DNA of 64,000 bases, from the NCBI GenBank assembly GCA_017302715.1, contig JAFLCD010000007.1, positions 62,001 to 126,000 on the forward strand, written 5' to 3'. Positions 9,153-64,000 of the stretch are shown one piece after another; position 1 is the stretch's first letter, and each line of letters starts with the position of its first letter. Below the pieces are notes generated by a model that was given only the letters and a program-made list of their open reading frames with translations, did no database searches and was not told the origin of the DNA. Source of the stretch: Deltaproteobacteria bacterium. Lineage in GTDB: Bacteria; Bdellovibrionota; UBA2394. The position numbers and the translations under genes are program-made.

Positions 9153-12100
9153 TTATCGATCGTTGTGATAAAGTCGGGCGGCTCCCTGAGCAGTTCCGCT
9201 CGCGTTGTTGTGCAAGCGCTCGCCGATGAGCAGATCGGGTTTGCTGTCGCCATCGTAGTCGCCATAAGAGTAAGAATAATTAAATCCAAGACTTCCCGTA
9301 AGAGTTTGAATGAGAGAGCCGTCATCTCCACTCCAAATGCGCACGGATGAAGTTACGCCTGCATAATTCGTGGCAGCGAAATCATTGGTTCCATCTCCGT
9401 CTACATCTCCTGCAAGAAAAACTCCTAAGCCAAGAAAATCCGAAGCCGTTGTTCCAATGATGGAATAAATAACGCTTCCCGTATCTCCATTATAAACAGA
9501 GACGGCGCCGGCATCCGTCGTCGCTCCATCATCATGCCGAGAAACTCCCACGACAAAATCTGCATGAGAATCGCCCGTGATGTCACCGATACCCGCAACT
9601 GAGCTTCCAAAGCCATCTTCAGAAGCTGCGCCTGTAAGAGAATGAAGAGGAGCTCCGTCCAACCCACTGTAAACAAATGCTCGTCCAAAATTTCCTGTGC
9701 TGCCGTCGGATGGTTGCCCAATAATAAAATCAGGATTTCCATCTAAATTTACATCCCCCGCACCTGCAACCGAGTAACCGAGATATCCCTGATCGACCGC
9801 ACCCGAAATGGTGTACATCACCGATCCATCAAATCCGCTAAAAACATAAGCGCGTCCTCGATCTGAACCTGGAGATCCCGCGTCGTGATAGGGGGCGCCG
9901 ATAATCACATCGGAGTAATTGTCGAGATTTGCGTCTCCCACTCTGCCAAGTGAAGCTCCGAACTGAGCGCCCGCTTCATCGCCAACAAGAACATCAAGCT
10001 GACCAGCGTCTGCGCCGCTAAAAATAATGACTCGACCTGTTCCACCATAGAGAGGCTCGCCGATCATAAAATCAGGAGTTCCATCGTGGTCAAAATCGCC
10101 CGCAGCTGAAATGACTTGTCCCAAATTTTCATTATCTATAGCTCCGTTGATCACAAATATTACAGAAGCATTTACTCCGCTATAGACCGTCGCTCGTCCT
10201 CTCGCGGTGCCAGCTCCATCTAAATCTGGACTACCTATAATATAGTCATCTCTTCCATCAGAATCGATATCGCCAATGAAAGTGACGGCCGTTCCTAAAT
10301 GTTCGAAGTCTTGAGTTCCTTCGATGAGTCGAGTTTGTCTGAAATAACCTTTTGTATAAGTGTAGTTCGTGCTCGATGAGGTTCCGTTATTTCCGTAGAT
10401 GTCTTGAAAACTTGAAGTATTAAAAGAGAGAACAAATGTTTGCTGATCAGCGCATGTCCCCAGCAACGTGATGGTGATGACTGTACCGGATGCTGAATCG
10501 ACGGTGACCGATGTGCCCGTACAAGTTCCGCCAATTCCAAAATCAGAAACATCAACAGAAGCGGGATCCACGGCTTGATCGAGAGTAATGGTAACTGTGG
10601 GAAGCGTCACTCGCGCCGAAGTGTCGGGACTTACCGAAACAAGACTTGGGCCAGAGCTGTCTATTGTATAGGTGCGGGAGACTGCGCTGCCCGATCCAGC
10701 ATTCAGTGCGGTGTCGGTGACATTGCTTGGATCTAAGCTAACTGTAAAAGTTTGAGTGTCGGCGCAAGTTCCGGTCAGTCCAAGTGTGATCACTCCAGCA
10801 ACAACAGAATCTACTGTTACGGATTTTCCAGTACACGTTCCACTTAAAGAAAAATCTCCAGCAGTGACAGATCCCGCAAGTAAATCACTACTCATTGTGA
10901 TTGTCGCCGTCGCAGGAAGCGATCCCACCGTTGAAGTCGCGGGTGTAAATGTTGAAATCGTTGGCGCGGTATTGTCTATAGTAATGGCGCTGCTTGCCGC
11001 TGATACGACTGAATTATTTGAATAAGCATCCGTGACGGCCGAAGCATTCACTTGCGCAGTCACCGTTCCAGTTCCCGTACAGTTTGATAAATTAATTGTC
11101 GGCGTTTGAGAAGAACCGTTCGTAATGCTCACCGTTCCACAAGTCGCTGTTCCTGAAGCCGTATTCACCGTAATTTCAGAATTCAACAAAGTTCCAGAAA
11201 CCGTTTCGTTGTACGTCACATCGATCGTCACATCGGCTGCTGCAGAATTAATGGGACCTGTCGATGAAGGAGCTGCAAGACTCGGAATCGGTCCTGCTGA
11301 GTCTATCGTGTAAGTTCGACTTTCTGCACCACCTGTTCCCGCATTCAGTGCGGTGTCGGTGACATTGCTTGGATCTAAGCTAACTGTAAAAGTTTGGGTG
11401 TCGGCGCAAGTTCCAGTGAGTCCCAGTGTGATCACTCCAGCAACAACAGAATCTACTGTTACGGATTTGCCGGTACAGGTTCCGCTTAAAGAAAAATCCG
11501 TGTCGACCACTGAACTTCCAAGCAAATCACTACTCATCGTGATTGTCGCCGTCGCGGGAAGTGAACCCACCGTTGAAGTCGCTGGTGTAAAAGTTGAAAT
11601 CGTCGGTGAAGTATTATCGATATCAATGGCCGTACTTGCCGAGGAAACTAAAGAATTATTTGAATAAATATCTGTCACCGCAGAAACATTCACTTGCACC
11701 GTGACCGTTCCTGTTCCCGTGCAGTTTGAAATATTAATGGTGGGAGTCTGCGAAGATCCGCTCGTGATACTGACCGTTCCACAAGTCGCAGTACCGGATG
11801 CCGTGTTCACTGTGATCTCTGAATTCAAAAGCGTGCCCGAAATTGTTTCGTTGTAAGTGACACCAATCGTCACGGCTGCCGCTGCAGAATTAATCGGCCC
11901 GGTTGTCGAAGGTGCAGCCAATGTTGGAACAGGACCCGCCGCATCTATTGTATAGGTGCGTGAAACTGAGCCACCCGAACCTGCGTTCAGTGCGGTGTCG
12001 GTAACATTGCTTGGATCAAAACTGAGAATGAATGTTTGAGTGTCAGCACAAGTTCCTGTGAGCCCGAGAGTGATCACTCCCGTTACAACTGAATTGACGG

Positions 12101-15100
12101 TGACTGACGTTCCCGTACACGTTCCGCCTATCGAAAAATCTCCAGACGCAACGGAGCCTGCAAGTAAATCGCTACTCATCGTGATCGTCGCCGTCGCGGG
12201 AAGTGTTCCCACCGTTGAAGTCGCGGGCGTGAATGTCGAAATCGTTGGCGCGGTATTGTCTATTGTAATAGCACTGCTTGCCGAAGAAGCGACGGATGCA
12301 TTTCCAACGACATCTGTTACAGCGGATGAATTCACCTGCGCCGTAACGGTTCCTGTTCCCGTGCAATCAGATAAATTAATCGTCGGCGTTTGACCTGAGC
12401 CACTCGTGATGCTGACGGTTCCGCAAGTCGCCGTTCCCGATGCGGTATTTACCGTGATCTCTGTATTGTCGAGAGTTCCAGAAATGGTTTCATTGTAAGT
12501 CACACCGATCGTAACGGCAGCCGCAGCAGAATTAATCGGCCCCGTGGTCGAAGGTGCCGCCAGTGTAGGTATTGGACTTGCAGAATCAATCGTATAAGTA
12601 CGACTCACCGACGATCCTGATCCAGCGTTTAAAGCCGCGTCCATCACACTGACGGGATCAAAACTAATCGTAAAAGTTTGAGTGTCAGCACAAGTTCCAA
12701 TCAATCCAAGCGTGATCACGCCTGAAGAAACAGAATTCACAGTCACCGATTTTGAAGTACAGGTTCCACTCAAAGAAAAATCTGAAATCGAAACCGAGCT
12801 CACGAGTAAATCGCTACTCATCGTGATCGTCGCCGTCGCGGGAAGTGCCGCGAAAGTTGCCGATGCGGCCGTGAAAGATGAAATAGTGGGAGCTGTATTA
12901 TCGACATTAATAATGGCGCTCGCAGATGAAACAATATTTCCGTTTCCTACCGCATCAGTGACAGCCGACGCATTCACTTGTGCTGTCACCGTTCCGGTGC
13001 CCGTGCAGTTTGAAATATTAATGGTTGGTGTTTGCGAAGATCCGCTCGTGATGCTGATTGTTCCGCAAGCGGCCGTTCCAGATGTAGCCGCCACAGTAAC
13101 TTCAGAATTTAATAAAGTTCCCGCAACTGTTTCGCTATAACTTACGCCGATCGTAAATGCTGAAGCTGTCGAGTTGAGCGGACCTGTCGTCGATGGAACG
13201 CCCAAGGTGACGACCGGTCCAGCGCCGTCGATCGTGTAAGTTCGCGTGACCACCGATCCCGTCGCAGGATTGCCAGAAGTGTCGGTGATATTGGTTGGAT
13301 CCAAACTGATGATAAAAGTATCTCCATCGGCACAGGTCGCCGAAAGTCCTAGCGTAATGATTCCGTTCAAAATCGAATTCACGGTGACCACTTTGCTCGT
13401 ACAAGTTCCACTCAAGGAAAAATCTCCTGCAGTGACAGAGCCGGCGAGCAAATCGCTGCTGGTGACGATTGTTGCAGAAGATGAAATCGCTTGAACCGTT
13501 GCGGTTGCCGGCGTGAAAGTTGAAACAGTCGGAGGAGTATTATCGACAGAAATAACGGAGCTCGCAGATGAAGCGACAGAATTATTTCCGACAGCATCTA
13601 CAACAGCTGCCGCATTGATCGTCGCTGTCACGGTTCCGGTTCCTGTGCAATTTGAAATATTAATCGTCGGTGTTTGAGAAGAACCGCTCGTGATGCTGAC
13701 CGTTCCACAGGTCGCTGTTCCAGAAACCGTGTTCACCGTTACTTCTGAATTGGATAAAGTTCCCGAAATAGTTTCGTTATAAGTGACTCCGATCGTCACC
13801 GCCGAAGCAGAAGAGTTCACCGGTCCTGTCGTTGAAGGTGCCGCCAGTGTAGGAATGGGACCCGAAGAGTCGACCACATACGTACGACTGACAGAACCAC
13901 CGGTGCCGACGTTGCCGGCGTCGTCGGTGACGTTAGCTGGATCAAAACTAATCGTGAAAGTTTGCCCGTTTGCACAAGTACCACCGACGCCCAGTGTGAT
14001 CACTCCCATCGAAACTGAAAGCACACTCACCGCTTTTCCCGTGCACGTTCCACTGAGCGAAAAATCTCCAGAGGTTACAGAGCCCGCGAGCAAATCGCTA
14101 CTCAACGTAATCGTCGCTGTCGCAGGAAGTGCAGACAAAGTTGCAGATGCTGGAGTGAAACTCGAAAGTGTGGGTGAAGTATTATCCACGGTAATGCTCG
14201 CACTTGCGGCCGAAACAGTACTCGCGTTTCCGTAAACGTCGGTGACGGCGGCGGCATTGATAGTGGCTGTGACCGTTCCGGAGCCGGTACAATTTGAAAG
14301 ATTAATAATCGGCGTTTGCGAAGATCCACTGGTAATCGTCACCGTTGCGCAAGTAGCTGTTCCAGTTGCGGTCGTAACTGTCACCTCTGAACTCGAGAGC
14401 GTTCCTGAGATAGCTTCGCTGTAACTTACGCCAATCGTCACTGCAGGATTTGAAGAGCTGACTGGGCCTGTCGTAGAAGGAGCCGCCAGAGTGGGCGTTG
14501 GTCCGATCGAATCGATAGTGTAAGTGCGACTGACGGTGGCTCCTGTTCCAACATTCGTCGATGAATCTGTCACAGCGGCTGGATCAAAACTGACAGTAAA
14601 AGTTTGAGTGTCGGCACAAGTTGCGGTGAGGCCAAGTGTGATCACTCCTGTCACAACAGAATTCACGGTCACAGATTGTCCGGTGCACGTTCCGCCTAAA
14701 GAAAAATCACTCGCATCGACGGTCGAGCCAAGCAAATCACTACTCATCGTCAAGGTGGCTGTTGACGGCAAAGTGGCTACGATCGAACTTGCCGGAGTAA
14801 AACTTGAAACAGTCGGAGATGTTAAATCGCAGGATTCAGTTGTGAAAGTATAAGTGCTTCCAGAAAACGGGGCGCCATTTTTAAATTCAATCGCAGAAGT
14901 TAAACAAATATTGTACGTCGTATCGCACGTGAGAGTTTCTGCAGGATCCAAGCTGATTTGTCGGCCGGTGGTGCTGACGGTGGTATCGATTCGATTCGCA
15001 ATATTACAAGCCGTCGGTCTGTACGATGCAGCAAGACTCGCTGCATGAAGAGTCGAAGAGCTTCCCGAACCGTGTGTGATGTAAGCACTTGAATTATTAA

Positions 15101-15308
15101 TTGAACTGACAAGAAGCGCTGAATTAAAATTAATAACTAAATTTTCATTGAGGCCTACAGAATTTCCAACACTGTTACCTTGAAAACTTCCGGTACCCAC
15201 CGAAGCAATATCAGCAGAGTCAACGGTATTATAAGCACACGAACTTAAATGCGCCAAAAAAAGTGGAAGCAAAGCCGTTAATATTCTTGATGAAAAACTT
15301 CCACGCAT
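9153..15308 (-). CDS. Giant lipoprotein with alternating Ig-like modules and a seven-blade FG-GAP propeller
   Basis: About 2051 residues. The ATG at 15308 is chosen because it directly starts a lipoprotein signal (RILTALLPLFLAHLSSC); a TTG 57 bases upstream keeps the frame but hides the signal. After a ~140-residue head there are eight A modules (start PTxSxFTPA, then LPATATITMSSDLL, two Cys in SGTCTG and GTCAD) interleaved with six B modules (PTLAAPSTTGP, then YNETISGT, two Cys in TATC and SNCTG). The C-terminal ~390 residues carry seven FG-GAP/integrin-alpha repeats with calcium-type loops such as GDIDSDGRDDYIIG. The protein is probably displayed at the outer-membrane surface as an adhesin or prey/host contact protein; that function is inferred. 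A Cys-rich secreted protein is encoded just upstream. Confidence 0.85.
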   Translation of the reverse strand: MRGSFSSRILTALLPLFLAHLSSCAYNTVDSADIASVGTGSFQGNSVGNSVGLNENLVINFNSALLVSSINNSSAYITHGSGSSSTLHAASLAASYRPTACNIANRIDTTVSTTGRQISLDPAETLTCDTTYNICLTSAIEFKNGAPFSGSTYTFTTESCDLTSPTVSSFTPASSIVATLPSTATLTMSSDLLGSTVDASDFSLGGTCTGQSVTVNSVVTGVITLGLTATCADTQTFTVSFDPAAVTDSSTNVGTGATVSRTYTIDSIGPTPTLAAPSTTGPVSSSNPAVTIGVSYSEAISGTLSSSEVTVTTATGTATCATVTITSGSSQTPIINLSNCTGSGTVTATINAAAVTDVYGNASTVSAASASITVDNTSPTLSSFTPASATLSALPATATITLSSDLLAGSVTSGDFSLSGTCTGKAVSVLSVSMGVITLGVGGTCANGQTFTISFDPANVTDDAGNVGTGGSVSRTYVVDSSGPIPTLAAPSTTGPVNSSASAVTIGVTYNETISGTLSNSEVTVNTVSGTATCGTVSITSGSSQTPTINISNCTGTGTVTATINAAAVVDAVGNNSVASSASSVISVDNTPPTVSTFTPATATVQAISSSATIVTSSDLLAGSVTAGDFSLSGTCTSKVVTVNSILNGIITLGLSATCADGDTFIISLDPTNITDTSGNPATGSVVTRTYTIDGAGPVVTLGVPSTTGPLNSTASAFTIGVSYSETVAGTLLNSEVTVAATSGTAACGTISITSGSSQTPTINISNCTGTGTVTAQVNASAVTDAVGNGNIVSSASAIINVDNTAPTISSFTAASATFAALPATATITMSSDLLVSSVSISDFSLSGTCTSKSVTVNSVSSGVITLGLIGTCADTQTFTISFDPVSVMDAALNAGSGSSVSRTYTIDSASPIPTLAAPSTTGPINSAAAAVTIGVTYNETISGTLDNTEITVNTASGTATCGTVSITSGSGQTPTINLSDCTGTGTVTAQVNSSAVTDVVGNASVASSASSAITIDNTAPTISTFTPATSTVGTLPATATITMSSDLLAGSVASGDFSIGGTCTGTSVTVNSVVTGVITLGLTGTCADTQTFILSFDPSNVTDTALNAGSGGSVSRTYTIDAAGPVPTLAAPSTTGPINSAAAAVTIGVTYNETISGTLLNSEITVNTASGTATCGTVSITSGSSQTPTINISNCTGTGTVTVQVNVSAVTDIYSNNSLVSSASTAIDIDNTSPTISTFTPATSTVGSLPATATITMSSDLLGSSVVDTDFSLSGTCTGKSVTVDSVVAGVITLGLTGTCADTQTFTVSLDPSNVTDTALNAGTGGAESRTYTIDSAGPIPSLAAPSSTGPINSAAADVTIDVTYNETVSGTLLNSEITVNTASGTATCGTVSITNGSSQTPTINLSNCTGTGTVTAQVNASAVTDAYSNNSVVSAASSAITIDNTAPTISTFTPATSTVGSLPATATITMSSDLLAGSVTAGDFSLSGTCTGKSVTVDSVVAGVITLGLTGTCADTQTFTVSLDPSNVTDTALNAGSGSAVSRTYTIDSSGPSLVSVSPDTSARVTLPTVTITLDQAVDPASVDVSDFGIGGTCTGTSVTVDSASGTVITITLLGTCADQQTFVLSFNTSSFQDIYGNNGTSSSTNYTYTKGYFRQTRLIEGTQDFEHLGTAVTFIGDIDSDGRDDYIIGSPDLDGAGTARGRATVYSGVNASVIFVINGAIDNENLGQVISAAGDFDHDGTPDFMIGEPLYGGTGRVIIFSGADAGQLDVLVGDEAGAQFGASLGRVGDANLDNYSDVIIGAPYHDAGSPGSDRGRAYVFSGFDGSVMYTISGAVDQGYLGYSVAGAGDVNLDGNPDFIIGQPSDGSTGNFGRAFVYSGLDGAPLHSLTGAASEDGFGSSVAGIGDITGDSHADFVVGVSRHDDGATTDAGAVSVYNGDTGSVIYSIIGTTASDFLGLGVFLAGDVDGDGTNDFAATNYAGVTSSVRIWSGDDGSLIQTLTGSLGFNYSYSYGDYDGDSKPDLLIGERLHNNASGTAQGAARLYHNDR
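10345..14830 (-). repeat. Intragenic tandem A-B module array
   Basis: This part of the giant lipoprotein gene is a tandem array with a period of about 640 bases (one A plus one B module, about 214 codons). Units near the 3' end are almost identical at DNA level: 10699-10754 and 11341-11396 share 56 identical bases. The 5' units are more diverged. Such a gradient points to recent unit duplication at the C-terminal side of the array. Long antisense reading frames across it arise from the repeats. Confidence 0.85.
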
Positions 15309-15431
15309 TCCTCTTATTTTCTCAAGATTTTGACTCGGGGGCGGCACCCCACGAGTCTGCGGCAAAGAAGTTTCTTAGCTGCGTGGCACTAATAATTTAT
15401 GAACGTCTAAGACGCTTCACAGAAAATTTTG

Positions 15432-37441: not shown

Positions 37442-38953
37442 GTGAATCAAAACAGTAGTCCTCAGCAACAGATCTCAATTGGTCAGGCGTTAGGCATTGC
37501 CGGCTTAGCGGGTACGATCTTTATAGCGACGAAAGCCGCAGAGCGATTTCATATGGGCATTCAAGATGCCATTATTGCAATCACGATAAGTGTCGGCGTG
37601 ATTGGCGCTGCCAGCATGGGAGCGATGATGATTTTTAAGCGAAAGCCCAAGAAGGCGAAATCATCGGGAGCGGAAATAGTTCTCGCGAAAGCGATTCATC
37701 AGGAATGGTGGAAAGCCGATCAAGCTTTACCGATTGGAATGCAAGACTTTCGTCACATCCTTGTGACGGGTACAACCGGCTCTGGGAAATCAACCTTTAT
37801 CCGGCGCTTTATTGAGCAGATTCTCAGCAAGAAAAAGAATTTTCTCTATATCGACTTTAAAGGTGAGAGGGACGATCTCGATCAGATTGGAAAAATTTGT
37901 AAGGAGCAAGGTGGTTCCGATCCACTTCAGGTGTTCGACATTTCGAATTCGGAGAAGTGCATAACCTTCAATCCACTTACCGTCTTTGAGAGCGTTGAAG
38001 AAACAGTAGGCTTTATTTCTTCCGTATTCTTCGACGAAAATTCGAATGAATACTATCAATCCGAAGCAGAACGATTCCTTCGGCACTCGATCAACCTTTT
38101 AGATGCAGCCAGTGAAACCCGCACCTTCGAGAGCATTCAGAAAATTTATTACGAATCGACGGCTAGATCCTCGTTATTGAAAGCTTCCAAAAAATCTGCA
38201 GGCCTTATTGTGGCGGACTATGAAACCTTCTTTACTAAAGAGTTCGAAGCTCTCTCGCCGAGAGATAGATCAGAGCGGTACTCGGGCCTCATGTCGATCC
38301 TGGCCGCGTTTAACTCAAACGAATTAAAGCGCATCTTTAGTCCAGAAGGTGAAAGCGAGCTAAAACTTGCAAACATCTTTGAAGCGAAGAGAAATCTGAT
38401 CATTCGTGTACCCGGGGAAGTCTTCGGAGATCTCTCGGCGAGAATCGTAAAAGCCTTTATCAAAATTATTCCAGTGCTGCTGGTAAAGCGTCGCGAAGAG
38501 CGGAATCGAAACGAATACTGCCTACTTTTCGACGAAGGCTGCTCTTACATGGACGAAACAATGATCGAAATTCTAAAGAAAGCTGGATCGGCCAATGTGA
38601 AGATGCTGATCACCCGAATGTGTGATGCTGACTTTCAAGCAAAGGATCCATCCTTTCTTGGCAGAATGCTTTCATCATTCAACTTGTTCGTTTGCTTTCA
38701 AACGATGGACCCAGACACTCGGGATACGCTCGCAAGAATATCCATGACAATTCAAGATACGAAAGCAACGTCTCGGTGGAGTCAGGGTGCCGATACAGGA
38801 GAAGCGTCGGTTCGAGATGTTCAGCGCTTTCGAATTCATCCGTCAGATTTCGGAACTCTCAAAACCGGCGAATGCTTTATGATTGCTCCGACTCTTAATC
38901 TTTATCAGAAAGTGCGCGTTCTTCCTCCTGAAAGTACGAGGGTGACCGCATGA
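37442..38953 (+). CDS. VirD4/TraD-like DNA-transfer coupling ATPase
   Basis: A 503-residue protein with two N-terminal membrane helices (about 13-30 and 38-58) and a cytosolic FtsK/VirD4-type motor: Walker A LVTGTTGSGKSTF (near 103-115), FLYIDFKGERDD, and Walker B LLFDEGCSYMD (near 360). The late segment NLFVCFQTMDPDTRDTLARI is like TraD/TraG coupling proteins. It would link transferred DNA to a type IV secretion channel supplied by another element, since no channel genes are near. The start is GTG with an AGGAG site. It overlaps the next gene by 4 bases (ATGA). Confidence 0.8.
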   Translation: MNQNSSPQQQISIGQALGIAGLAGTIFIATKAAERFHMGIQDAIIAITISVGVIGAASMGAMMIFKRKPKKAKSSGAEIVLAKAIHQEWWKADQALPIGMQDFRHILVTGTTGSGKSTFIRRFIEQILSKKKNFLYIDFKGERDDLDQIGKICKEQGGSDPLQVFDISNSEKCITFNPLTVFESVEETVGFISSVFFDENSNEYYQSEAERFLRHSINLLDAASETRTFESIQKIYYESTARSSLLKASKKSAGLIVADYETFFTKEFEALSPRDRSERYSGLMSILAAFNSNELKRIFSPEGESELKLANIFEAKRNLIIRVPGEVFGDLSARIVKAFIKIIPVLLVKRREERNRNEYCLLFDEGCSYMDETMIEILKKAGSANVKMLITRMCDADFQAKDPSFLGRMLSSFNLFVCFQTMDPDTRDTLARISMTIQDTKATSRWSQGADTGEASVRDVQRFRIHPSDFGTLKTGECFMIAPTLNLYQKVRVLPPESTRVTA

Positions 38954-39720
38954 GTTACGCTACGGACATTCTCGATTATCTTTCGAGATGGAAGCTTGCA
39001 GACACGGTAAATCTTGCAGCTGGTGCATTCCCGAATAAAGTGATCAACCAGAATACTTATTCGGTGACGCTGAAGCGTTTACGCAGAGACAAACTTATCG
39101 CAAGTCATCGACTCGGGGATCTTACGGTACATTTCGATCATGCGATCAGAAATCGCTCCAACTATGTCGCCCGCATACCGAAGACAGAACGACGAAGTTT
39201 CTTATCTCGGTCTGGCATAGACCATCATTTGAAAATTCAAAGACTCTCTAACCAGCTTGAAAAACTTTTAATAGGTTTTAAATTCTCTCCAAATCCAAAT
39301 GACAAAACGCTTTCAACGACCGATGGGAGGGTCGGGGAAAGCGGACGAAAGTTTATTCCAGATCTAATTGCGGAGCCTACTGACCAGCTAGATCGATTGA
39401 TATTTGTAGAAGTAGAGCGAACTTTAAAGGCAGATCGCAGATACTTTGAAAAATGGGAAGCCTATGAAACCGATCAAAACCTCTTTGCTTGTTTGTATGT
39501 TGTTTACGACCGGGTCATAGAATTGCAACTCAAAGAAAAACTAAGGCGTTACTTTTCGGGAGCGAGATTCGGATCGAGTAGTTTCGCCATTGGTATTCTG
39601 CAGGCTGACAAAATCGAGGAAGATAAAAGTCGCGCAGTTGTGACTCGTTTTGAAAAATCAAAGGAGAGTGAAGTGACGCTCTATGATTTCTTTCCACGGC
39701 ATTTAATAAGTACCGGATAA
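38950..39720 (+). CDS. Replic_Relax-like (replication/relaxation) protein
   Basis: A 256-residue protein. The N-terminal winged-helix region (ADTVNLAAGAFPNKVINQNT, LKRLRRDKLIASHRLG) is followed by a nuclease-like central part with PDLIAEPTDQLDRLIFVEVERTL (here shortened: PDLIAEP, FVEVERTL), which resembles the Replic_Relax family described for plasmid replication and DNA relaxation. With the coupling ATPase overlapping it by 4 bases it probably takes part in DNA processing for transfer, maybe in place of a standard relaxase. The family assignment is from pattern only. Confidence 0.6.
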   Translation: MSYATDILDYLSRWKLADTVNLAAGAFPNKVINQNTYSVTLKRLRRDKLIASHRLGDLTVHFDHAIRNRSNYVARIPKTERRSFLSRSGIDHHLKIQRLSNQLEKLLIGFKFSPNPNDKTLSTTDGRVGESGRKFIPDLIAEPTDQLDRLIFVEVERTLKADRRYFEKWEAYETDQNLFACLYVVYDRVIELQLKEKLRRYFSGARFGSSSFAIGILQADKIEEDKSRAVVTRFEKSKESEVTLYDFFPRHLISTG

Positions 39721-39769
39721 TGCGCCCACGATGTGCCGGAGTGATTTTAAAATATGAATGTTAATCGAC

Positions 39770-39853
39770 GCTTCCGAACTGACTCCCCTCTCTCAACCAA
39801 CACACTAAAGGTTGTTTGCCCTAAAGGGACGAGACGGGAGTCAGTTCGGAAGC
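39770..39853. repeat. Large nested inverted repeat (candidate oriT or regulatory RNA)
   Basis: An 18-base perfect inverted repeat, GCTTCCGAACTGACTCCC (39770-39787) and its complement (39836-39853). The 48-base inside has two small hairpins: CAACC...GGTTG (39794-39815) and CCC-TAAA-GGG (39819-39828). It forms a three- or four-way junction in single-stranded DNA or RNA. It lies between the Replic_Relax and HTH genes, where transfer origins are often found. No T-run follows, so a terminator is less likely. Confidence 0.6.
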
Positions 39854-39893
39854 TGGTATGAGATTTAATTGAAAGTAATAGGAAGTAGGAGTT

Positions 39894-40127
39894 ATGAATG
39901 AAGATGCACTGATTGATGATAATCAGAAGTTCTTTGAAAATTTGCCGGATTTGATAAGAGCCGAAAACCTCGCCAGTCTAATGGGATTGTCTGTGAAGAC
40001 GATTTACGATTGGCGATATCGAGCGCGAATAAGAAGAGTGCCTGCAGAATTGTTTTTAAAATTCCGCGGCAAGCTTTTTGTTCGCACCAAAGTTCTAAAA
40101 CAGTGGATGGCCTCTGAATGCTCTTAA
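39894..40127 (+). CDS. Small HTH protein, probable excisionase
   Basis: A 77-residue protein with an excisionase-type HTH: ENLASLMGLSVKTIYDWRYR and the wing KLFVRTKVLKQWM. It has an AGGAG ribosome site and is 18 bases before the integrase gene. Its position suggests it helps the integrase excise the element. The two HTH proteins of the element share the fold but not close sequence. Confidence 0.75.
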   Translation: MNEDALIDDNQKFFENLPDLIRAENLASLMGLSVKTIYDWRYRARIRRVPAELFLKFRGKLFVRTKVLKQWMASECS

Positions 40128-40145
40128 GGGAGCAGAGAGGAATCT

Positions 40146-41294
40146 ATGAGTATCAAGAAAATCATAACAAGCATCGGACCGCGCTGGGAAGTTCGCTACC
40201 GAATTGGTGGCCGCGACTCTAAACGGGTAAAGCGATTGTTTGAAACTCGGCGCGACGCCGAAAGTCATTATGATGATTGGCGTAAACGCAAACGAGATTT
40301 GAAACTTTCGGGAAGTACGATTCGAGACTTTGAAGAAACGACCTTTGAACAAGAGGCCAAGCATTGGCTCCTTGTCCAAGCGAAGACTTTTAGTCCGGGT
40401 CATCTGAAACGAGTGGAAAGAATTCTTTTAGAGTTATTTCCGCGTTACGGAAGACTTTCTCCTCAAAAGTTTCATCCAGGCTTTTTGTCGACAATTCAGA
40501 TGGAGCAACTCGCGCTTAAGCTTGCACATGCAACTGTGAATCGAAAGCTTGAAGTGATTCGGGCCGTTCTGAATTTTTCTGCAAAACAGCGGCGCATTCC
40601 GTATAGTCCAACTCTTGGGTACACGAAGCTTCGTGAGGTGAGAGAAGATGTTTCGTTTTGGGAACGAAAAGATGCAGAAACCTTTTTAGCTTTTGTGAGT
40701 GAGAAGTATCCTGCAGGTTCTACGAAGCGATGGATCTACGTTGTTTATCTTTTGGCTTTAAACTCTGGCCTAAGAGCCGGAGAAATTTGGGGCCTCAAGT
40801 ATGAGGACATCAAACAAGATGGAGAGGTTTTACACATTCAACGTCAGTTTGATCGGGTACATCGTGACTTCAGAACGACGAAAGGAAAAACATCCCGACT
40901 TGTTCCATGTAACGAGAATCTTTTTCAAGAGCTGATGGCGCTAAAGCGAACCGAAGACCAACCCGAAACCATTTTCTCTGATCGAGATAATGGAAATCCA
41001 ATAGATCACGATAATTTTCGCAAACGGAATTTTGAAATGGATCTAGCGGAATGGGGAGGAAAGAAAATTCGCTTTCATGATCTTCGCCATACAGCTGCGA
41101 CTTTGATGATCGCCGATAACTTGGACATTAAAACCGTTCAAGAAATCTGCGGACACAAAGATATCAAAACGACCCTGAACTACTGTCACCTTCTCGGTGA
41201 AAAGATCAAACAAGCTGCCCGAACGTTTTCTATAAAACCTTCAGTGGCGGCACCGACCACTAAACCAATTCTTCGACTTATTAAAAACGGCTAA
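40146..41294 (+). CDS. Tyrosine recombinase (integrase)
   Basis: A 382-residue phage-type integrase. An N-terminal arm/SAM-like region (residues 1-165) is followed by the catalytic domain with the R-K-H-R-H-Y set: Arg in LNSGLRAGEIW (near 212), His-x-x-Arg in FHDLRHTAAT (near 317-320), His in CGHKDIKTT and the nucleophile Tyr in LNYCHL. It lies 141 bases before the right attachment repeat, the usual place for the integrase of a tRNA-targeted element. A GAGGA ribosome site precedes it. Confidence 0.92.
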   Translation: MSIKKIITSIGPRWEVRYRIGGRDSKRVKRLFETRRDAESHYDDWRKRKRDLKLSGSTIRDFEETTFEQEAKHWLLVQAKTFSPGHLKRVERILLELFPRYGRLSPQKFHPGFLSTIQMEQLALKLAHATVNRKLEVIRAVLNFSAKQRRIPYSPTLGYTKLREVREDVSFWERKDAETFLAFVSEKYPAGSTKRWIYVVYLLALNSGLRAGEIWGLKYEDIKQDGEVLHIQRQFDRVHRDFRTTKGKTSRLVPCNENLFQELMALKRTEDQPETIFSDRDNGNPIDHDNFRKRNFEMDLAEWGGKKIRFHDLRHTAATLMIADNLDIKTVQEICGHKDIKTTLNYCHLLGEKIKQAARTFSIKPSVAAPTTKPILRLIKNG

Positions 41295-55855: not shown

Positions 55856-56200
55856 TTAGGCAATGGGAGGTCTGAATAGGTTCATCTGAATAAGTCGAGA
55901 AAGACTACTAGAATAGCCGATCTTGATCGTGGAATTAATTTGAGCAACATCAACATTCTTCGAACCAAAAATGAGAGCAGCACAACAACCGAGATGGCAT
56001 GCATGCGATGACGAATCATCCGAAGCTAGATCCGAAGCGGCCGCGGCGTTGTCGATAAGTTGAATGCTTGTCGAGGAACTAAAAGATTTAGCAAATTGAT
56101 CCACGCACATATGACTTGCTGAGAAAAAAAGACTCAGAAGTAAAAATGCGCCTAATATTTTTTTATGAACCCCCGACATGAGCATCCATCTTACCAACAT
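55856..56200 (-). CDS. Small exported Cys/His protein (DUF2946/CzcI-like)
   Basis: A 114-residue protein. The N-terminal MLVRWMLMSGVHKKILGAF includes a membrane/signal segment (ILGAFLLLSLFFSASHMC). The mature part has H-A-C-H-L-G-C-C (near residues 73-80), a possible metal site, and a C-terminal LFRPPIA. Such proteins occur ahead of czc/cop operons. The first ATG is taken because GGAG lies 8 bases upstream. It is 65 bases before czcC, likely in the same operon. Confidence 0.55.
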   Translation of the reverse strand: MLVRWMLMSGVHKKILGAFLLLSLFFSASHMCVDQFAKSFSSSTSIQLIDNAAAASDLASDDSSSHACHLGCCAALIFGSKNVDVAQINSTIKIGYSSSLSRLIQMNLFRPPIA

Positions 56201-58722: not shown

Positions 58723-59058
58723 TTAAGCTAATTGAAAACGAGGAGGGCCAATTGGAGGTTGGACGGAGCGCGAATCGATCGATTCATTTTGAAAATCCAA
58801 GATTGGTTTGTCGGTGTTTAAAAAATTGATTGAAGAAATTCCATCCTTAAACAAAATCAAATGACAATGCCCGCAAGAAGAACACATTTCATTCATCGGA
58901 AGGTCATTCAACCCCTTTTCAGAACAGTCTGATGTCTCATTCTTCGAGTACGAAGAATCCAATTCCGACGATTTAGACTCTCCAAACTGTGAGCAAACTC
59001 CCGCCTCAACTTGAGCCGAAATAAGAGTAAATAAAATGGAAATTATAAAGCCCCTCAT
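58723..59058 (-). CDS. Small exported Cys/His protein, DUF2946-like
   Basis: A 111-residue protein with signal peptide (MRGFIISILFTLISAQVEAG). The mature part has MCSSCGHCHLILF (near residues 59-71), a C-x2-C-x2-C-x-H site for soft metals, and a C-terminal PPIGPPRFQLA. The layout is like that of the 55856-56200 protein, so the two may be distant copies. It lies upstream of the lipoprotein/TolC-like pair. Confidence 0.55.
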   Translation of the reverse strand: MRGFIISILFTLISAQVEAGVCSQFGESKSSELDSSYSKNETSDCSEKGLNDLPMNEMCSSCGHCHLILFKDGISSINFLNTDKPILDFQNESIDSRSVQPPIGPPRFQLA

Positions 59059-59292
59059 ACGAACAGTTAATAGACTAACTGCATCAAATTGTGGGGAGCA
59101 AGACTTAGTTGAAATCTCTCAGTTTTTGTGGTGTGTTTTCGATTGCATTTGGCTCGATCGAATAACCTGAACGGAAGAAGAAATAATTAATTTCGCAAGA
59201 CCCGAACTCGCGATAATATCTCTAGTCATTTTCTAACTTTCGTCGAAAGACGTTGCCGATAATGGGGCGCATCCTTGGCTCAAGGAGTCTTT

Positions 59293-59643
59293 ATGTCCCA
59301 TATTTCACGTGAATTAAAAGATTGTATTGATAACTGTACGACCTGCCATGACGTTTGTGCTGAAACGATTCAATATTGCCTTGAAAAAGGCGGGAAACAT
59401 GCTGAAGCAAAGCACATTCGGTTGCTCATCGATTGCGCAGAAATTTGCCAAACGAGTGCCAACTATATGCTTCGAGGATCGGATCTACATCCGGAGACTT
59501 GTCGAACGTGTGCGATCGTCTGCGATCAATGTGCTGAAAGTTGCGAACAAATGACTGGAGATGCGGAGATGAAGTGCTGTGCCGACATTTGCCGCAAGTG
59601 TGCGGATTCTTGCCACCGCATGGAAAGCAAACGAGCGGCCTAG
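59293..59643 (+). CDS. Csp-type four-helix copper-storage protein
   Basis: A 116-residue cytosolic protein starting MSHISRELKDCIDNCTTCHD, at the ATG at 59293 (AAGGAGT at good spacing). About 17 Cys are spaced in helical repeats (CxxC, CxxxC) such as DCAEICQTSANYM, ETCRTCAIVCDQCAESCEQM and CCADICRKCADSCHRM, the pattern of the DUF326/Csp four-helix bundle that stores cuprous ions. No signal peptide is seen, so it acts in the cytosol. A palindrome CTTTCGTCGAAAG lies 44 bases upstream (59237-59249). Confidence 0.93.
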   Translation: MSHISRELKDCIDNCTTCHDVCAETIQYCLEKGGKHAEAKHIRLLIDCAEICQTSANYMLRGSDLHPETCRTCAIVCDQCAESCEQMTGDAEMKCCADICRKCADSCHRMESKRAA

Positions 59644-60344
59644 TTTGTTTTTTCGAAGCGCATCTGTCGAAACAAAAACAGAATAGTTAATAAAGCAGTG
59701 AGACTGCCCATAAGCCAATAGGGCAAATGAAGGCGCGCATGTGCATCCATTGTCTGTAGGAGAATCACAGGGCTTTGTCCTAACAGCATTACCGCAAAGA
59801 TGCCGAGAAAATATTTTTTAGGAGCATAAGCAATTGCCTCTCGTACTGTCAAAAACACAAGACCTGCCGCAAGGCCTGAAAAAATCAATCCGCAAAAAAA
59901 CATACAGAGCGACATGCCGCCCCAGTTCATAAATGTTTGGGTCATGGGCTCCGTTAAAGAAGATAAATAATTTGGCAAGTTACTTAAGGCGGCCAAATCA
60001 GGACAGACCGCAATTTGCAGAAGGCTTATGAGAGTCATTCCCATCAGAAGACGTCCCCACGTCCAAGTTGACCAGAACCCTCGCACCTCTAGACGAGGCT
60101 GCGGCTTGAAATAAAGACTTAGGGCAATCAAAAGGAGTAACCAGACGCAAGAAGTAGCGGTCAAAATTTGATGAGTAACGGCATCTGGCCAAATCCAATG
60201 AAGGAAAGTCAAAATGCAGCCCGCTAAAAGAGACGCAATCACAAAGGATTTGAGTTTCCATTTCCACTGAGGAACTTTTTCTTCCTCTAATGCACCCCGG
60301 ATTGCACTCATCAATTGGTCATTTGTTCTATTTAGATCACCCAT
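59640..60344 (-). CDS. NrsF/DUF1109-like anti-sigma factor
   Basis: A 234-residue protein with six membrane segments. It starts at the ATG at 60344, overlapping the sigma gene's end by 8 bases. The N-terminal cytosolic part (DLNRTNDQLMSAIRGALE) would bind the sigma factor. Two Cys of the sort reported for metal-sensing NrsF are in IAVCPDLAAL and LCMFFCGLIF. It would release sigma on exposure to heavy metal or oxidant. The pair with the ECF factor just upstream is typical. Confidence 0.75.
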   Translation of the reverse strand: MGDLNRTNDQLMSAIRGALEEEKVPQWKWKLKSFVIASLLAGCILTFLHWIWPDAVTHQILTATSCVWLLLLIALSLYFKPQPRLEVRGFWSTWTWGRLLMGMTLISLLQIAVCPDLAALSNLPNYLSSLTEPMTQTFMNWGGMSLCMFFCGLIFSGLAAGLVFLTVREAIAYAPKKYFLGIFAVMLLGQSPVILLQTMDAHARLHLPYWLMGSLTALLTILFLFRQMRFEKTN

Positions 60345-60909
60345 GATTTTTTTTACTTTCACCTTGGTTAAGTTTGGCAAACTCCTTTAGCCGAAGACGC
60401 GCTCGCACGAGAATCTGCCTTACGGCGCTGTCCGATTTGTTTTTCATCTTCGCAATTTCAGAAGACGAAAATCCTTCGATATCGCTTAAGATCAAAATTT
60501 CCCTCGGACCATCTTGTAACTTCTTTAAAGCCTCCTCGAGAAACTGTCGATCTACCCATTGTAAAACGGATTGAGAACTTTCATCGGTCGAAGCGGTCTC
60601 CTCCAAATGATCGGAAACACTTTCATATTTCCATCGAGCCTCTCGCACATGATCTCGAATGGTATTAACCGCAATCGTAAAGGCCCAACTGCCAAAACGC
60701 TGTTCACTATCAAATTTTTTACGCGCCTGATGGATCTTCAGCCATGTAATCTGAAATAGATCTTCCACTGCATTTTGGCGAGCTCCACTCAATCGCCGAA
60801 AAAAGAAAGAGCGCAAACGTTTTTCATATCGAGTGAACAGAGTTTGAAACGAGCGAGCGTCACCGGAGGCATAAGCTTGCATAAGGGCTTCGTCGCTCGA
60901 TTCATCCAT
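60337..60909 (-). CDS. ECF-type RNA polymerase sigma factor
   Basis: A 190-residue group IV sigma factor. Region 2 spans DARSFQTLFTRYEKRLRSFF to VEDLFQITWLKIHQARKKFD, and region 4 is REILILSDIEGFSSSEIAKM with RQILVRARLRLKE. It is followed by the membrane anti-sigma gene (8-base overlap) and preceded, 26 bases away, by a 48-codon Cys-rich peptide gene. In this metal island its regulon may include the copper genes around it. Confidence 0.93.
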   Translation of the reverse strand: MDESSDEALMQAYASGDARSFQTLFTRYEKRLRSFFFRRLSGARQNAVEDLFQITWLKIHQARKKFDSEQRFGSWAFTIAVNTIRDHVREARWKYESVSDHLEETASTDESSQSVLQWVDRQFLEEALKKLQDGPREILILSDIEGFSSSEIAKMKNKSDSAVRQILVRARLRLKEFAKLNQGESKKNHG

Positions 60910-60935: not shown

Positions 60936-61082
60936 CTATTTTTTGCAGCAACAATCACAAGCTTTGCCCTCGCAGGTACTTCCACAGCAACAGGATTTAC
61001 CCGTACATGATTTTGTTTCTGCATATGTAGACACTGTGGTGAGTGAAAGCAGCGCTACGAGGGTGTAAAATAATTTCTTCAT
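60936..61082 (-). CDS. 48-residue secreted cysteine-rich peptide
   Basis: The frame has a GGAG ribosome site six bases before the ATG. It begins with a full Sec signal peptide (KKLFYTLVALLSLTTVSTYA). The mature ~27 residues have nine Cys (CTGKSCCCGSTCEGK then ACDCCCKK) and five Lys. It has no aromatic residues, like a metallothionein, but is predicted to be exported. It lies between the 84-residue secreted gene and the ECF sigma gene, so it may be both a target and a sensor part of that regulon. No family is known to me. Confidence 0.75.
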   Translation of the reverse strand: MKKLFYTLVALLSLTTVSTYAETKSCTGKSCCCGSTCEGKACDCCCKK

Positions 61083-61102
61083 TTTAATCTCCTTTATTCA
61101 AG

Positions 61103-61357
61103 TTATCGTTCACGACTGCTTCGGTTAAAGAACCGTTCTTGACGCAATTCATCTTGCCGTTTTTGAGCTAATTCCTGCTGAACTTTTGCCTCCTCTGATC
61201 GTTTCTGATCGAGGGTTGTTTGAACTGCTTGATCAATCTCAGCATGGGTTACGTAGTTTTGAATGGGCTCTCCTGGTTTAACATCGTGAGCGCTAAGAGT
61301 TTGAAAACTACCTCCTGCGATCAAGACTGCCAAAGTTCCCCATAATGTGACTTTCAT
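61103..61357 (-). CDS. Small exported charged protein
   Basis: An 84-residue protein with signal peptide (WGTLAVLIAGGSFQTLSA) and a ~60-residue mature chain very rich in Gln, Glu, Arg and Lys, which is likely a helix or coiled coil (DQAVQTTLDQKRSEEAKVQQ). No family is recognised. It is followed 20 bases later by the Cys-rich peptide gene. Its ribosome site (GGAGA) is next to a large palindrome. Confidence 0.55.
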   Translation of the reverse strand: MKVTLWGTLAVLIAGGSFQTLSAHDVKPGEPIQNYVTHAEIDQAVQTTLDQKRSEEAKVQQELAQKRQDELRQERFFNRSSRER

Positions 61358-61368
61358 AATATCTCCTC

Positions 61369-61402
61369 ACTTATTGACACGCTTTATTGCGTCTCAATAA
61401 GT
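61369..61402. promoter_or_regulatory. 34-base near-perfect palindrome
   Basis: ACTTATTGA-C-ACGC pairs with GCGT-C-TCAATAAGT across a TTTATT loop: 13 pairs with a single C-C mismatch. It ends about 11 bases before the start codon of the 84-residue protein, beside the ribosome site. It could be an operator of a metal-responsive repressor, or a hairpin on the mRNA that hides or spares the ribosome site. Confidence 0.5.
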
Positions 61403-61464
61403 AATACGGAGTGAAGGGGGTAGCTGTGACAAAGCTTTCTAATATCCTCACGTCACATCTGCTT

Positions 61465-61947
61465 TTACTTCTCAAGTTCTGCCAATTTAGCTTTCATTTC
61501 ATTAATTTCTTGCTGTTGGCTAGAAATGATCGCTTGGCATAAATCTTTAATTTCAGGATTTTCTATCGAAGCTTTTTGGCACATCAGGATTGCGCCCCCA
61601 TGATGCGGGATCATCGATTTTAAAAACTGTTTATCTGAAATCGCTGTCTGTTCTCGGATGAGTGTAAAAAAGCCGATCAACGCGACGATTCCCCCGGCGA
61701 TCACAAAGCTATTAAGTTTTTTATTTTGATACGTCGATTTCATAACAAGAATCTCAATCAGAATCATCGGCGCCGTCATTAGACCCGCCATATAAAACTG
61801 GTTGAGGTTGAAATAGACGTTGGAAAACGAATCCACCATGGCATACATAAGGGCATACATGGAGAAAAACGAAAGCACGCTCATCATGAGCAAATGAAGG
61901 TAATGGATATTTCCATGATCTTTGGTGGTATGGCTGCCGTGACTCAT
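61465..61947 (-). CDS. DUF305 membrane protein
   Basis: A 160-residue protein. His-rich N-terminus (SHGSHTTKDHGNIHY), three membrane helices, then a C-terminal DUF305 motif, QFLKSMIPHHGGAILMCQKA (His pair near 120), and a helical tail. Such proteins accompany copper-resistance genes and are thought to bind copper or ferric iron through the His pair. It lies 29 bases after the P-type ATPase gene on the same strand. Confidence 0.85.
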   Translation of the reverse strand: MSHGSHTTKDHGNIHYLHLLMMSVLSFFSMYALMYAMVDSFSNVYFNLNQFYMAGLMTAPMILIEILVMKSTYQNKKLNSFVIAGGIVALIGFFTLIREQTAISDKQFLKSMIPHHGGAILMCQKASIENPEIKDLCQAIISSQQQEINEMKAKLAELEK

Positions 61948-61976: not shown

Positions 61977-64000
61977 TTAAAGTTTGATATTTTTCAGTCT
62001 CAGGGCGTTGACGACCACCGAGACCGAGCTTAACGCCATAGCGGCACTTGCAACGATAGGACTCAACAAAATTCCAAAGAATGGAAAAAGGATTCCTGCC
62101 GCAATCGGCACCCCAAGGGCGTTGTAGGCAAAAGCGAAGAAAAGATTTTGCCGAATATTTCGCATTGTTCCGCGACTGAGCACGATCGCTTTCGAGATCC
62201 CGCGCAAGTCGCCTTTTACTAAGGTGATGCCTGCACTCTCCATCGCGATATCTGTGCCCGTTCCCATGGCGACACCCACTTGCGCTTGAGAAAGTGCCGG
62301 AGCGTCGTTGATTCCATCTCCGGCCATTGCGACAATTCGGCCTTTATGTTGGAATTTCTTAATGACCTCTGTTTTTTGCTCCGGCAAAACTTCCGCAATG
62401 ACTTCATCGATCTTAAGTTTTTTGGCGACTGCTTCAGCGGTTGTGCGACTATCGCCCGTTAGCATGACAATTCTCACTTTATTTTGATGGATTAGGTCGA
62501 TGGCTTCGGGAGTGGATGCTTTGATTGGATCTGCGACACCTAAGAGGGCGACGGCCTTTCCGTCAACGGCCATAAACATCACAGTCTGACCATCCTTACG
62601 AAGCTCTTCTGACTTTTCTAAAAGCGTTCCAATTTGGACGTTTTCACTTTCTAGAAGTTTCTTATTTCCAATGGCAATTTTTTTTCCGCGCACTGTTCCC
62701 GTGACGCCTTTACCTGTCACGGATTGAAACTGATCGGGCCGCTCGATTTTAATTCCTCGCTCTTTCGCTCCAAGCACTATGGATTGAGAAAGAGGATGCT
62801 CACTTCCTTGCTCAAGACTTCCGGCAAGTTGAAGGAGTTCGTTTTCAGAAATCTCAGCGGTCGCAACAACTGCTACAAGTTTTGGATGCCCTTCCGTTAG
62901 AGTTCCCGTCTTATCGACGACGAGCGTGTCTACCTTTTGAAATGCTTCTAGGGCTTCCGCATTTCTAATCAAGATTCCAGAGCTTGCTCCGCGGCCAATT
63001 CCAACCATGATCGACATCGGAGTTGCAAGTCCGACTGCGCAAGGGCAAGCGATGATAAGCACTGCGACTGCATTCACAATTCCATAGACAAAAGAAGGTT
63101 CCGGGCCAAATGCCCACCAGAGGAAAAAAGTGAGGACAGCAATTCCAACGACAGTTGGAACGAAGTACGCGGCGACAAGATCCGCCAGGCGCTGGATGGG
63201 CGCACGGCTTCTCTGGGCTTCAGCAACCATATGGACAATCTGGGAAAGCAGGGTGTCTTTGCCGACGCGCTTGGCTTCCATCACAAAACTTCCCGTTTGA
63301 TTGACGGTAGCTCCGGTCACTTTAGATCCAACTTCTTTAGAGACCGGAATCGGCTCGCCCGTAATCATCGATTCGTCGACATGACTTCCGCCCTCGATCA
63401 CAACACCATCAACAGGAATTTTTTCGCCAGGACGCACACGAAGTCTGTCGCCGACCTGAACGTCTGAAAGCGGAATATCTTCTTCGCGCCCGTCCGTTCG
63501 AAGAATGCGAGCCGTTTTTGGAGCGAGGCCAAGCAAAGCTTTGATCGCTTGAGAGGTTTGACTGCGCGCGCGCAGTTCAAGCACTTGCCCTAAGAGGACG
63601 AGAACGGTAATGACTGCGGCCGCTTCAAAGTAAACTCCCACGGCTCCGTGGTCGCTTCGATAAGAAGTCGGAAAGAGATTTGGAAATAAAATACCAATAA
63701 TGCTGTAGAGGTAGGCCAGTCCCACACCAATCGCAATGAGGGTGAACATATTGAGATGCCGTGTTCGAAGGGACTGCCAGCCGCGAACGAAAAAAGGCCA
63801 TCCCGCCCAAAGCACAACAGGTGTCGCTAGAGCCAATTGAATCCATTGACCGAGACGGCTTTGAACGAACTCTGCGATGGTGCTGGGAAGAAGATGCTCG
63901 ATCATGACTGTAAGAAGTGGCGCGGTGAGAATAAGGCCGATCCAAAATCGACGTGTCATATCGATAAGTTCGGGATTCTGTTCGGGTGCGGATTCGAGCG
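61977..64000 (-). CDS. copA: Copper-translocating P1B-type ATPase (5' end outside window)
   Basis: The part inside the window has the full transport core: the CPC membrane motif [14 protein letters not shown], the phosphorylation site DKTGT, the actuator motif MITGEPIPV, the GEKIPVDG loop, the N-domain [11 protein letters not shown] and the hinge GDGINDAP. The last membrane helices have [11 protein letters not shown]. An ATG at 63959 starts MTRRFWIGL, but the frame stays open to the window edge with residues typical for this family ahead of it ([12 protein letters not shown]), so the gene continues beyond and the N-terminal metal-binding domains are not seen. It would export copper(I). Confidence 0.93.

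Follow-up and report, generated by a model that had tools for sequence, protein, structure and literature searches.

A gene for a predicted exported, metallothionein-like cysteine peptide under an ECF-type promoter in a Bdellovibrionota genome

Bacterial metallothioneins are few and have been described as cytosolic. In Mycobacterium tuberculosis, the small cysteine-rich copper binder MymT is required for copper resistance, and metallothioneins have been placed in the cytosol by review (PMC7558416). In Caulobacter, the ECF factor SigF with its cysteine-bearing partner NrsF is copper-induced and needed for copper tolerance; DUF2282 and DUF692 genes belong to its regulon (PMC8224329; PMC3511200) and are the bufferin genes (PMC12452194). 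Across 5.4 million open papers, phrasings such as 'periplasmic metallothionein' brought up no case from bacteria. The window analysed here is a 64,000-nt stretch of contig C17 from a Bdellovibrionota genome of 2.39 Mb. A sequence-only reading had picked out of it a metallothionein-like exported peptide tied to an ECF sigma/anti-sigma pair amid copper genes. That general picture holds: the peptide gene goes with an ECF/anti-sigma-like pair, and genes for a CopA, a DUF305/CopM-like protein and a Csp adjoin (Table 1).

Table 1. Features of the window around the Cys peptide gene (positions counted from the first letter of the window)
Feature	Position	Strand	Basis or remark
Csp-type (DUF326) copper storage protein without signal peptide	59290..59643	+	convergent with the unit
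Putative anti-sigma factor, helical membrane protein, ~234 aa	59640..60344	-	invariant CP and CMxxCG-type cysteines; not NrsF
ECF sigma factor	60337..60909	-	Pfam Sigma70_r2 (E 1.5e-15) and r4_2; TIGR02937; alignment A2
Predicted exported Cys-rich (metallothionein-like) peptide	60936..61082	-	48 aa; mature part of 27 aa with 9 Cys
Ribosome-binding site AGGAG of the Cys peptide	61089..61093	-	read from the sequence
84-aa exported, Cys-free, charged helical protein, gene 1 of the unit	61103..61357	-	sequence
5' leader hairpin, downstream of the promoter and ahead of the 84-aa gene's ribosome site	61371..61400	-	-16.1 kcal/mol, z-score -4.7
ECF-type promoter TTGTCACA-N16-CGTATT	61403..61432	-	single exact match to the pattern in the whole genome
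DUF305/CopM-like membrane protein, adjacent copper gene	61465..61947	-	profile match
CopA-type copper P-type ATPase	61977..64000	-	continues beyond the window end; 817 aa in L022

In sequence terms, the peptide gene (MKKLFYTLVALLSLTTVSTYAETKSCTGKSCCCGSTCEGKACDCCCKK, 48 codons) is confirmed as real. Its AGGAG stands 6 nt ahead of the ATG, in keeping with the good ribosome site noted before, and inspection agrees that the signal peptide is clear: a KK n-region is followed by a hydrophobic core (best 10-residue Kyte-Doolittle mean 2.3) and by the cleavage site TYA-E, without a lipobox. This is a predicted Sec signal peptide, and cleavage would split the precursor into MKKLFYTLVALLSLTTVSTYA and the mature part ETKSCTGKSCCCGSTCEGKACDCCCKK. 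The count of nine cysteines in 27 mature residues is likewise correct; CCC occurs twice, and aromatic residues and His are both absent. This cysteine content exceeds chance. In 40 second-order Markov windows simulated with the composition of the real window, the maximum was 5-7 Cys per open stretch of 27 residues, and the remainder of the real window has no more than 7, with the peak within the Csp copper-storage protein. The small size and the Cys content are those of a metallothionein as a kind, for which at least ~15-30% Cys in CxC/CC arrangements is the mark. No curated metallothionein model in Pfam or NCBIfam matched the window peptide or six scanned members of the family described below.

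The peptide gene is the second of four on the minus strand, with gaps of 20 bp before and 26 bp after it. The order is the 84-aa exported protein, the Cys peptide, the ECF sigma factor and the anti-sigma-like membrane protein, whose start overlaps the ECF stop codon. The sigma factor was assigned to the ECF group on having sigma-70 regions 2 and 4 only. A 107-bp gap separates the unit from the CopA and DUF305 genes. The ECF-type promoter lies inside this gap, 45 nt ahead of the gene for the 84-aa protein, and the peptide gene is thus most likely part of a four-gene unit with its own promoter. The sequence-only reading had put the peptide, the sigma/anti-sigma pair and the copper genes into one operon. 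The ECF factor and a multi-helix membrane protein do follow the peptide directly downstream, whereas the copper genes are split off by the promoter-bearing gap and, judging from the sequence, are probably neighbours rather than part of the unit's transcript. Directly after the promoter, the leader contains a hairpin (UUAUUGA.ACGC-loop-GCGU.UCAAUAA) that may stabilise the transcript or control translation; an Rfam scan of the contig's 8-kb end gave no match. The 84-aa protein is unannotated and ends in an FxxRxxR-like sequence. Proteins of 82 and 87 aa that resemble it are encoded behind anti-sigma genes in two other loci (L053 and L054), each with an ECF-type promoter of its own ahead of it.

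Position and topology suggest that the membrane protein acts as the anti-sigma factor. It has six clear relatives in the phylum, all adjoining a similar ECF gene (alignments A1, A2), and a wider set of ~180-aa relatives, which the six-relative set matches at profile level (E 1.7e-13); matches occur in 59 genomes altogether. A Cys within CP/CxQF is invariant, as is a pair in a GxxxCMxxCG-like motif. The label NrsF, which the sequence-only reading had given to this partner, had to be dropped. In a family relative, G004, PF06532 finds genuine NrsF genes; it does not match this protein, and hhalign against the G004 NrsF proteins returned a probability of 0.3%, with a like result for the ~180-aa set. 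An AlphaFold model of the protein (mean pLDDT 83) had no significant fold match in the PDB. When contigs were scanned with the anti-sigma alignment, the matches were limited to the six Bdellovibrionota loci, and neither anti-sigma type had a match in plasmids.

The promoter motif recurs across Bdellovibrionota, ahead of related ECF genes and of exported Cys-rich peptide genes. Among 368 genomes, TTGTCACA-N15/16-CGTATT had 61 matches, compared to 5 for the reversed control pattern. Throughout the loci scanned, sites of the GTCACA-N15/16-CGTA type precede nearly every ECF gene of the group as well as divergent metal genes, and the operon promoter of the window is itself a GTCACA-N15-17-CGTATT-type site beside an ECF/anti-sigma-like pair. 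The genes behind such promoters include those for RND pumps and for HMA-domain, heavy-metal-binding-domain, haem-binding and TolC-type proteins, which gives the circuit the look of a metal response. Copper appears to be the likeliest signal.

An unannotated family of exported Cys-rich peptides, with the pattern CxCxxxCxxxC..CxCxxCxC, was found in 25 genomes. Its members were first met in G001 and G367 and then in G148, G150, G134 and G038; profile A4 was built from six peptides, and searching with it yielded further members. The curated set contains 27 genes in 25 genomes when one weaker gene from G333 is included, and 26 genes in 25 genomes without it. Ten Cys columns are conserved in the alignment of 26 peptides, five of them in all (consensus CxCxxxCxxxC-x(5-9)-CxCxxCxC....C....C), and individual members carry 7-11 Cys. 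The six family peptides scanned matched no model in Pfam or NCBIfam. The family is easily missed owing to length cut-offs and low-complexity sequence. Beyond the phylum, coverage consisted of plasmids, where the family peptides had no match, and one pattern-limited contig scan.

The usual layout in this family is divergent, with the ECF and peptide genes back to back and one promoter site each. In a 300-nt search, GTCACN-N15-17-CGTA was located within 90 nt upstream of the start in 20 of the 27 family-type genes; the same search found it for only 26 of the 315 longer ORFs of those loci, and these were mainly ECF genes, co-transcribed neighbours or ORFs overlapping the peptides. An ECF gene lies within 2.5 kb of the peptide in 19 of 27 cases (20 of 28 counting the window). 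The other 8 of the 28 peptide genes have no ECF neighbour, some of them at contig ends or on short contigs. A look for homologues beside ECF pairs, suggested earlier as a check, was positive in ~20 loci, with a common promoter. Closer peptide pairs show an excess of third-position differences, and dN/dS is 0.02-0.14 in most of those with an estimable dS, the exception being G338/G337 (0.34-0.51). The third-position excess together with the mostly low dN/dS indicates that the peptide frames are under protein-level selection. Metal genes (CopA, RND pump, CDF or haem-binding) occur near the peptide in several relatives. Within the stretch read, recognisable metal genes were present in only 7 of the 28 loci, and copper as the general signal is therefore not established.

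The window peptide itself stands apart from this family in sequence. Searches for a homologue of it found none in its own genome, 58 related genomes or 72,556 plasmids. Its family-profile score is that of its shuffles (299 of 500 score as high), and it does not have the combination of a signal peptide with CxCxxxCxxxC-x(5-9)-CxCxxCxC. Export signal, size, Cys density and control are common to both, whereas alignable sequence is not. Given this likeness in anatomy and control at a shuffle-level score, we class the window gene with the family by kind and by type of circuit; it may have arisen as an independent replacement rather than by descent from the family. The sequence-only reading had named the lack of a transcript or peptide, together with the lack of a conserved frame in relatives, as grounds for giving up the gene. 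On the frame, the result is divided: the exact sequence has no alignable homologue, yet the kind of gene recurs with a shared promoter and ECF factor.

Several other observations concern the surroundings of the unit. Past the window end, an exported His-rich protein is encoded behind GTCACA-N15-CGTAGT (L022:6912-7764, +), with an RND pump gene following it, and is possibly another ECF target. Two small exported proteins containing His and Cys (111 and 114 aa; 55856-56200 and 58723-59058, minus strand) are encoded close to metal-efflux genes. Upstream of the metal genes, 37442-41294 (+) holds a TraD/FtsK-like ATPase gene, another mobility-type gene and a tyrosine-type integrase gene, all named by eye, and the metal region of the window may be a mobile island. 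When the window DNA was compared with plasmids, only CopA-type ATPases were among the best matches. A 2070-aa secreted protein with repeated Ig-like and FG-GAP-like units, also named by eye, is encoded at 9153-15365 (-). Elsewhere in the same genome (G000, contig C12, ~214711; L096), a bufferin-type operon encodes two tandem exported precursors of the EGANxCKG type with an MNIO and a partner protein. Canonical NrsF genes are found near MNIO genes in G004 (L262 and L265, on contigs C47 and C73), which indicates that this genome has both NrsF/bufferin and non-NrsF circuits.

What is established is the anatomy of the gene, the order of the operon, the promoter motif, the recurrence of the arrangement, the purifying selection acting on the family and the lack of an MNIO link. 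With somewhat better than even confidence, we take the peptide for an exported, metallothionein-like buffer of metal, Cu(I) being the likeliest, in an envelope metal-stress response. In this scheme, excess metal in the periplasm would meet the conserved cysteines in the anti-sigma-like membrane protein, setting the ECF sigma factor free to transcribe its own operon from TTGTCACA-N16-CGTATT. Expression of the operon would supply the exported 84-aa protein and the Cys peptide as well as more sigma and anti-sigma. The peptide would exit by Sec and lose its signal peptide, and the nine-Cys tail would chelate metal outside the cytoplasm, with CopA exporting and Csp storing copper inside. As the peptide ties up the metal, the sensor would switch off again. 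What we infer is the identity of the metal, its binding, the export, the role of the membrane protein as sensor and the feedback. In an oxidising periplasm, free thiols may pair into disulphides, in competition with metal binding; the thiols might survive through metal loading while the peptide is exported or shortly afterwards, or through disulphide exchange.

A part in signalling overlaps with buffering, since any buffer in the same compartment also gives feedback. The alternative is that the peptide is a feedback element rather than a bulk carrier, trading metal with the Cys-containing anti-sigma factor and tuning the ECF response. It is compatible with the position of the gene (here with the promoter on one side and the sigma/anti-sigma genes on the other, elsewhere divergent from ECF) and with the invariant cysteines kept in the membrane protein. 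However, related ECF/anti-sigma pairs without an adjacent Cys peptide are common, and the switch therefore does not need the peptide; we consider this reading unlikely. Slightly less probable again is another function, in which the exported peptide would be disulphide-rich and act as redox buffer, thiol scavenger or secreted toxin/defence peptide. Sec export does end in an oxidising compartment, and disulphide-rich toxins in the PDB are weakly similar at profile level (E 0.065), but this is the level expected of Cys composition. The CxC and CCC spacing is typical for metal-thiolate proteins, and a metal-type ECF circuit is not the control that points to a toxin.

That the ORF is non-functional, a chance or decaying frame between two real genes, appears highly improbable. 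The missing alignable homologue of the exact sequence would fit such a frame, but the ribosome site, signal peptide and Cys content occur together between tight gaps, the Cys composition lies beyond the simulation, and the same kind of gene and circuit is present in many relatives. We give the least credence of all to a bufferin-type precursor, in which an MNIO (DUF692) would turn the cysteines into heterocycles before export. Bufferins, functionally the closest model, likewise have a signal peptide, Cys richness, ECF control and a copper theme; the window's genome has one MNIO locus, and many precursors in the bufferin paper sit away from MNIO genes. However, the genome's MNIO belongs to a separate operon on another contig with two precursors of its own, and none of the 28 peptide loci contains an MNIO gene. 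MNIO is wholly absent from 19 of the 25 genomes with family peptides, and from 10 of the 14 more complete ones (>=90% complete, <=5% contaminated). The window's cluster contains no MNIO or DUF2063-type partner, and the window peptide has no Pfam or NCBIfam match to DUF2282 or another family. With no MNIO at the loci and none in 19 of 25 genomes, bufferin-type maturation is not general, and bufferin as the general case was rejected.

Taken as a metal buffer, the peptide would belong to a wider scheme that we propose tentatively, at a little short of even confidence: an undescribed class of envelope metal defence of Bdellovibrionota, in which an ECF factor, restrained by a new Cys-sensing, non-NrsF anti-sigma factor, would directly turn on exported, ribosomally made, enzymatically unmodified thiol metallothioneins that act outside the cytoplasm. 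What the analysis adds is a regulon motif, an anti-sigma-like family without annotation and an easily missed peptide family. About 25 other species of this phylum of predatory bacteria have similar peptides with the same type of switch, which suggests a metal sponge sent out of the cytoplasm. If the peptides bind metal, the survival of free thiols in the periplasm becomes a testable question.

Like NrsF (PF06532), the membrane partner of the window is a multi-pass protein encoded after the ECF gene and has conserved cysteines; it differs in its motif (CP/CxQF ... GxxxCMxxCG) and is missed by PF06532 in both genome and protein scans. Csp1 (TAT_Cys_rich) resembles the peptide as an exported Cys-rich copper binder, copper binding by the peptide being presumed. 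However, Csp1 is a Tat-exported four-helix bundle, and the neighbouring Csp, without a signal peptide, is a protein separate from the Cys peptide. With the bacterial metallothioneins SmtA/BmtA and MymT, the peptide shares small size, Cys richness and predicted metal-thiolate clusters, and its mature part has no aromatics; it differs in its signal peptide, its ECF promoter and the missing Pfam/NCBIfam metallothionein match. The bufferins (Buf1/DUF2282, Buf2) are also exported Cys peptides of copper stress, controlled in Caulobacter by an ECF factor and a Cys-containing membrane anti-sigma factor. The window peptide differs from them in the absence of an MNIO or DUF2063 partner and in its Cys pattern, the NrsF of the bufferin circuit is unrelated at profile level to the membrane partner here, and the bufferin promoter is GTAACC-N16-CGAA compared to GTCACA-N16-CGTATT. 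If the peptides bind metal, a thiol-based periplasmic buffer would be possible without the chemical modification of the bufferins.
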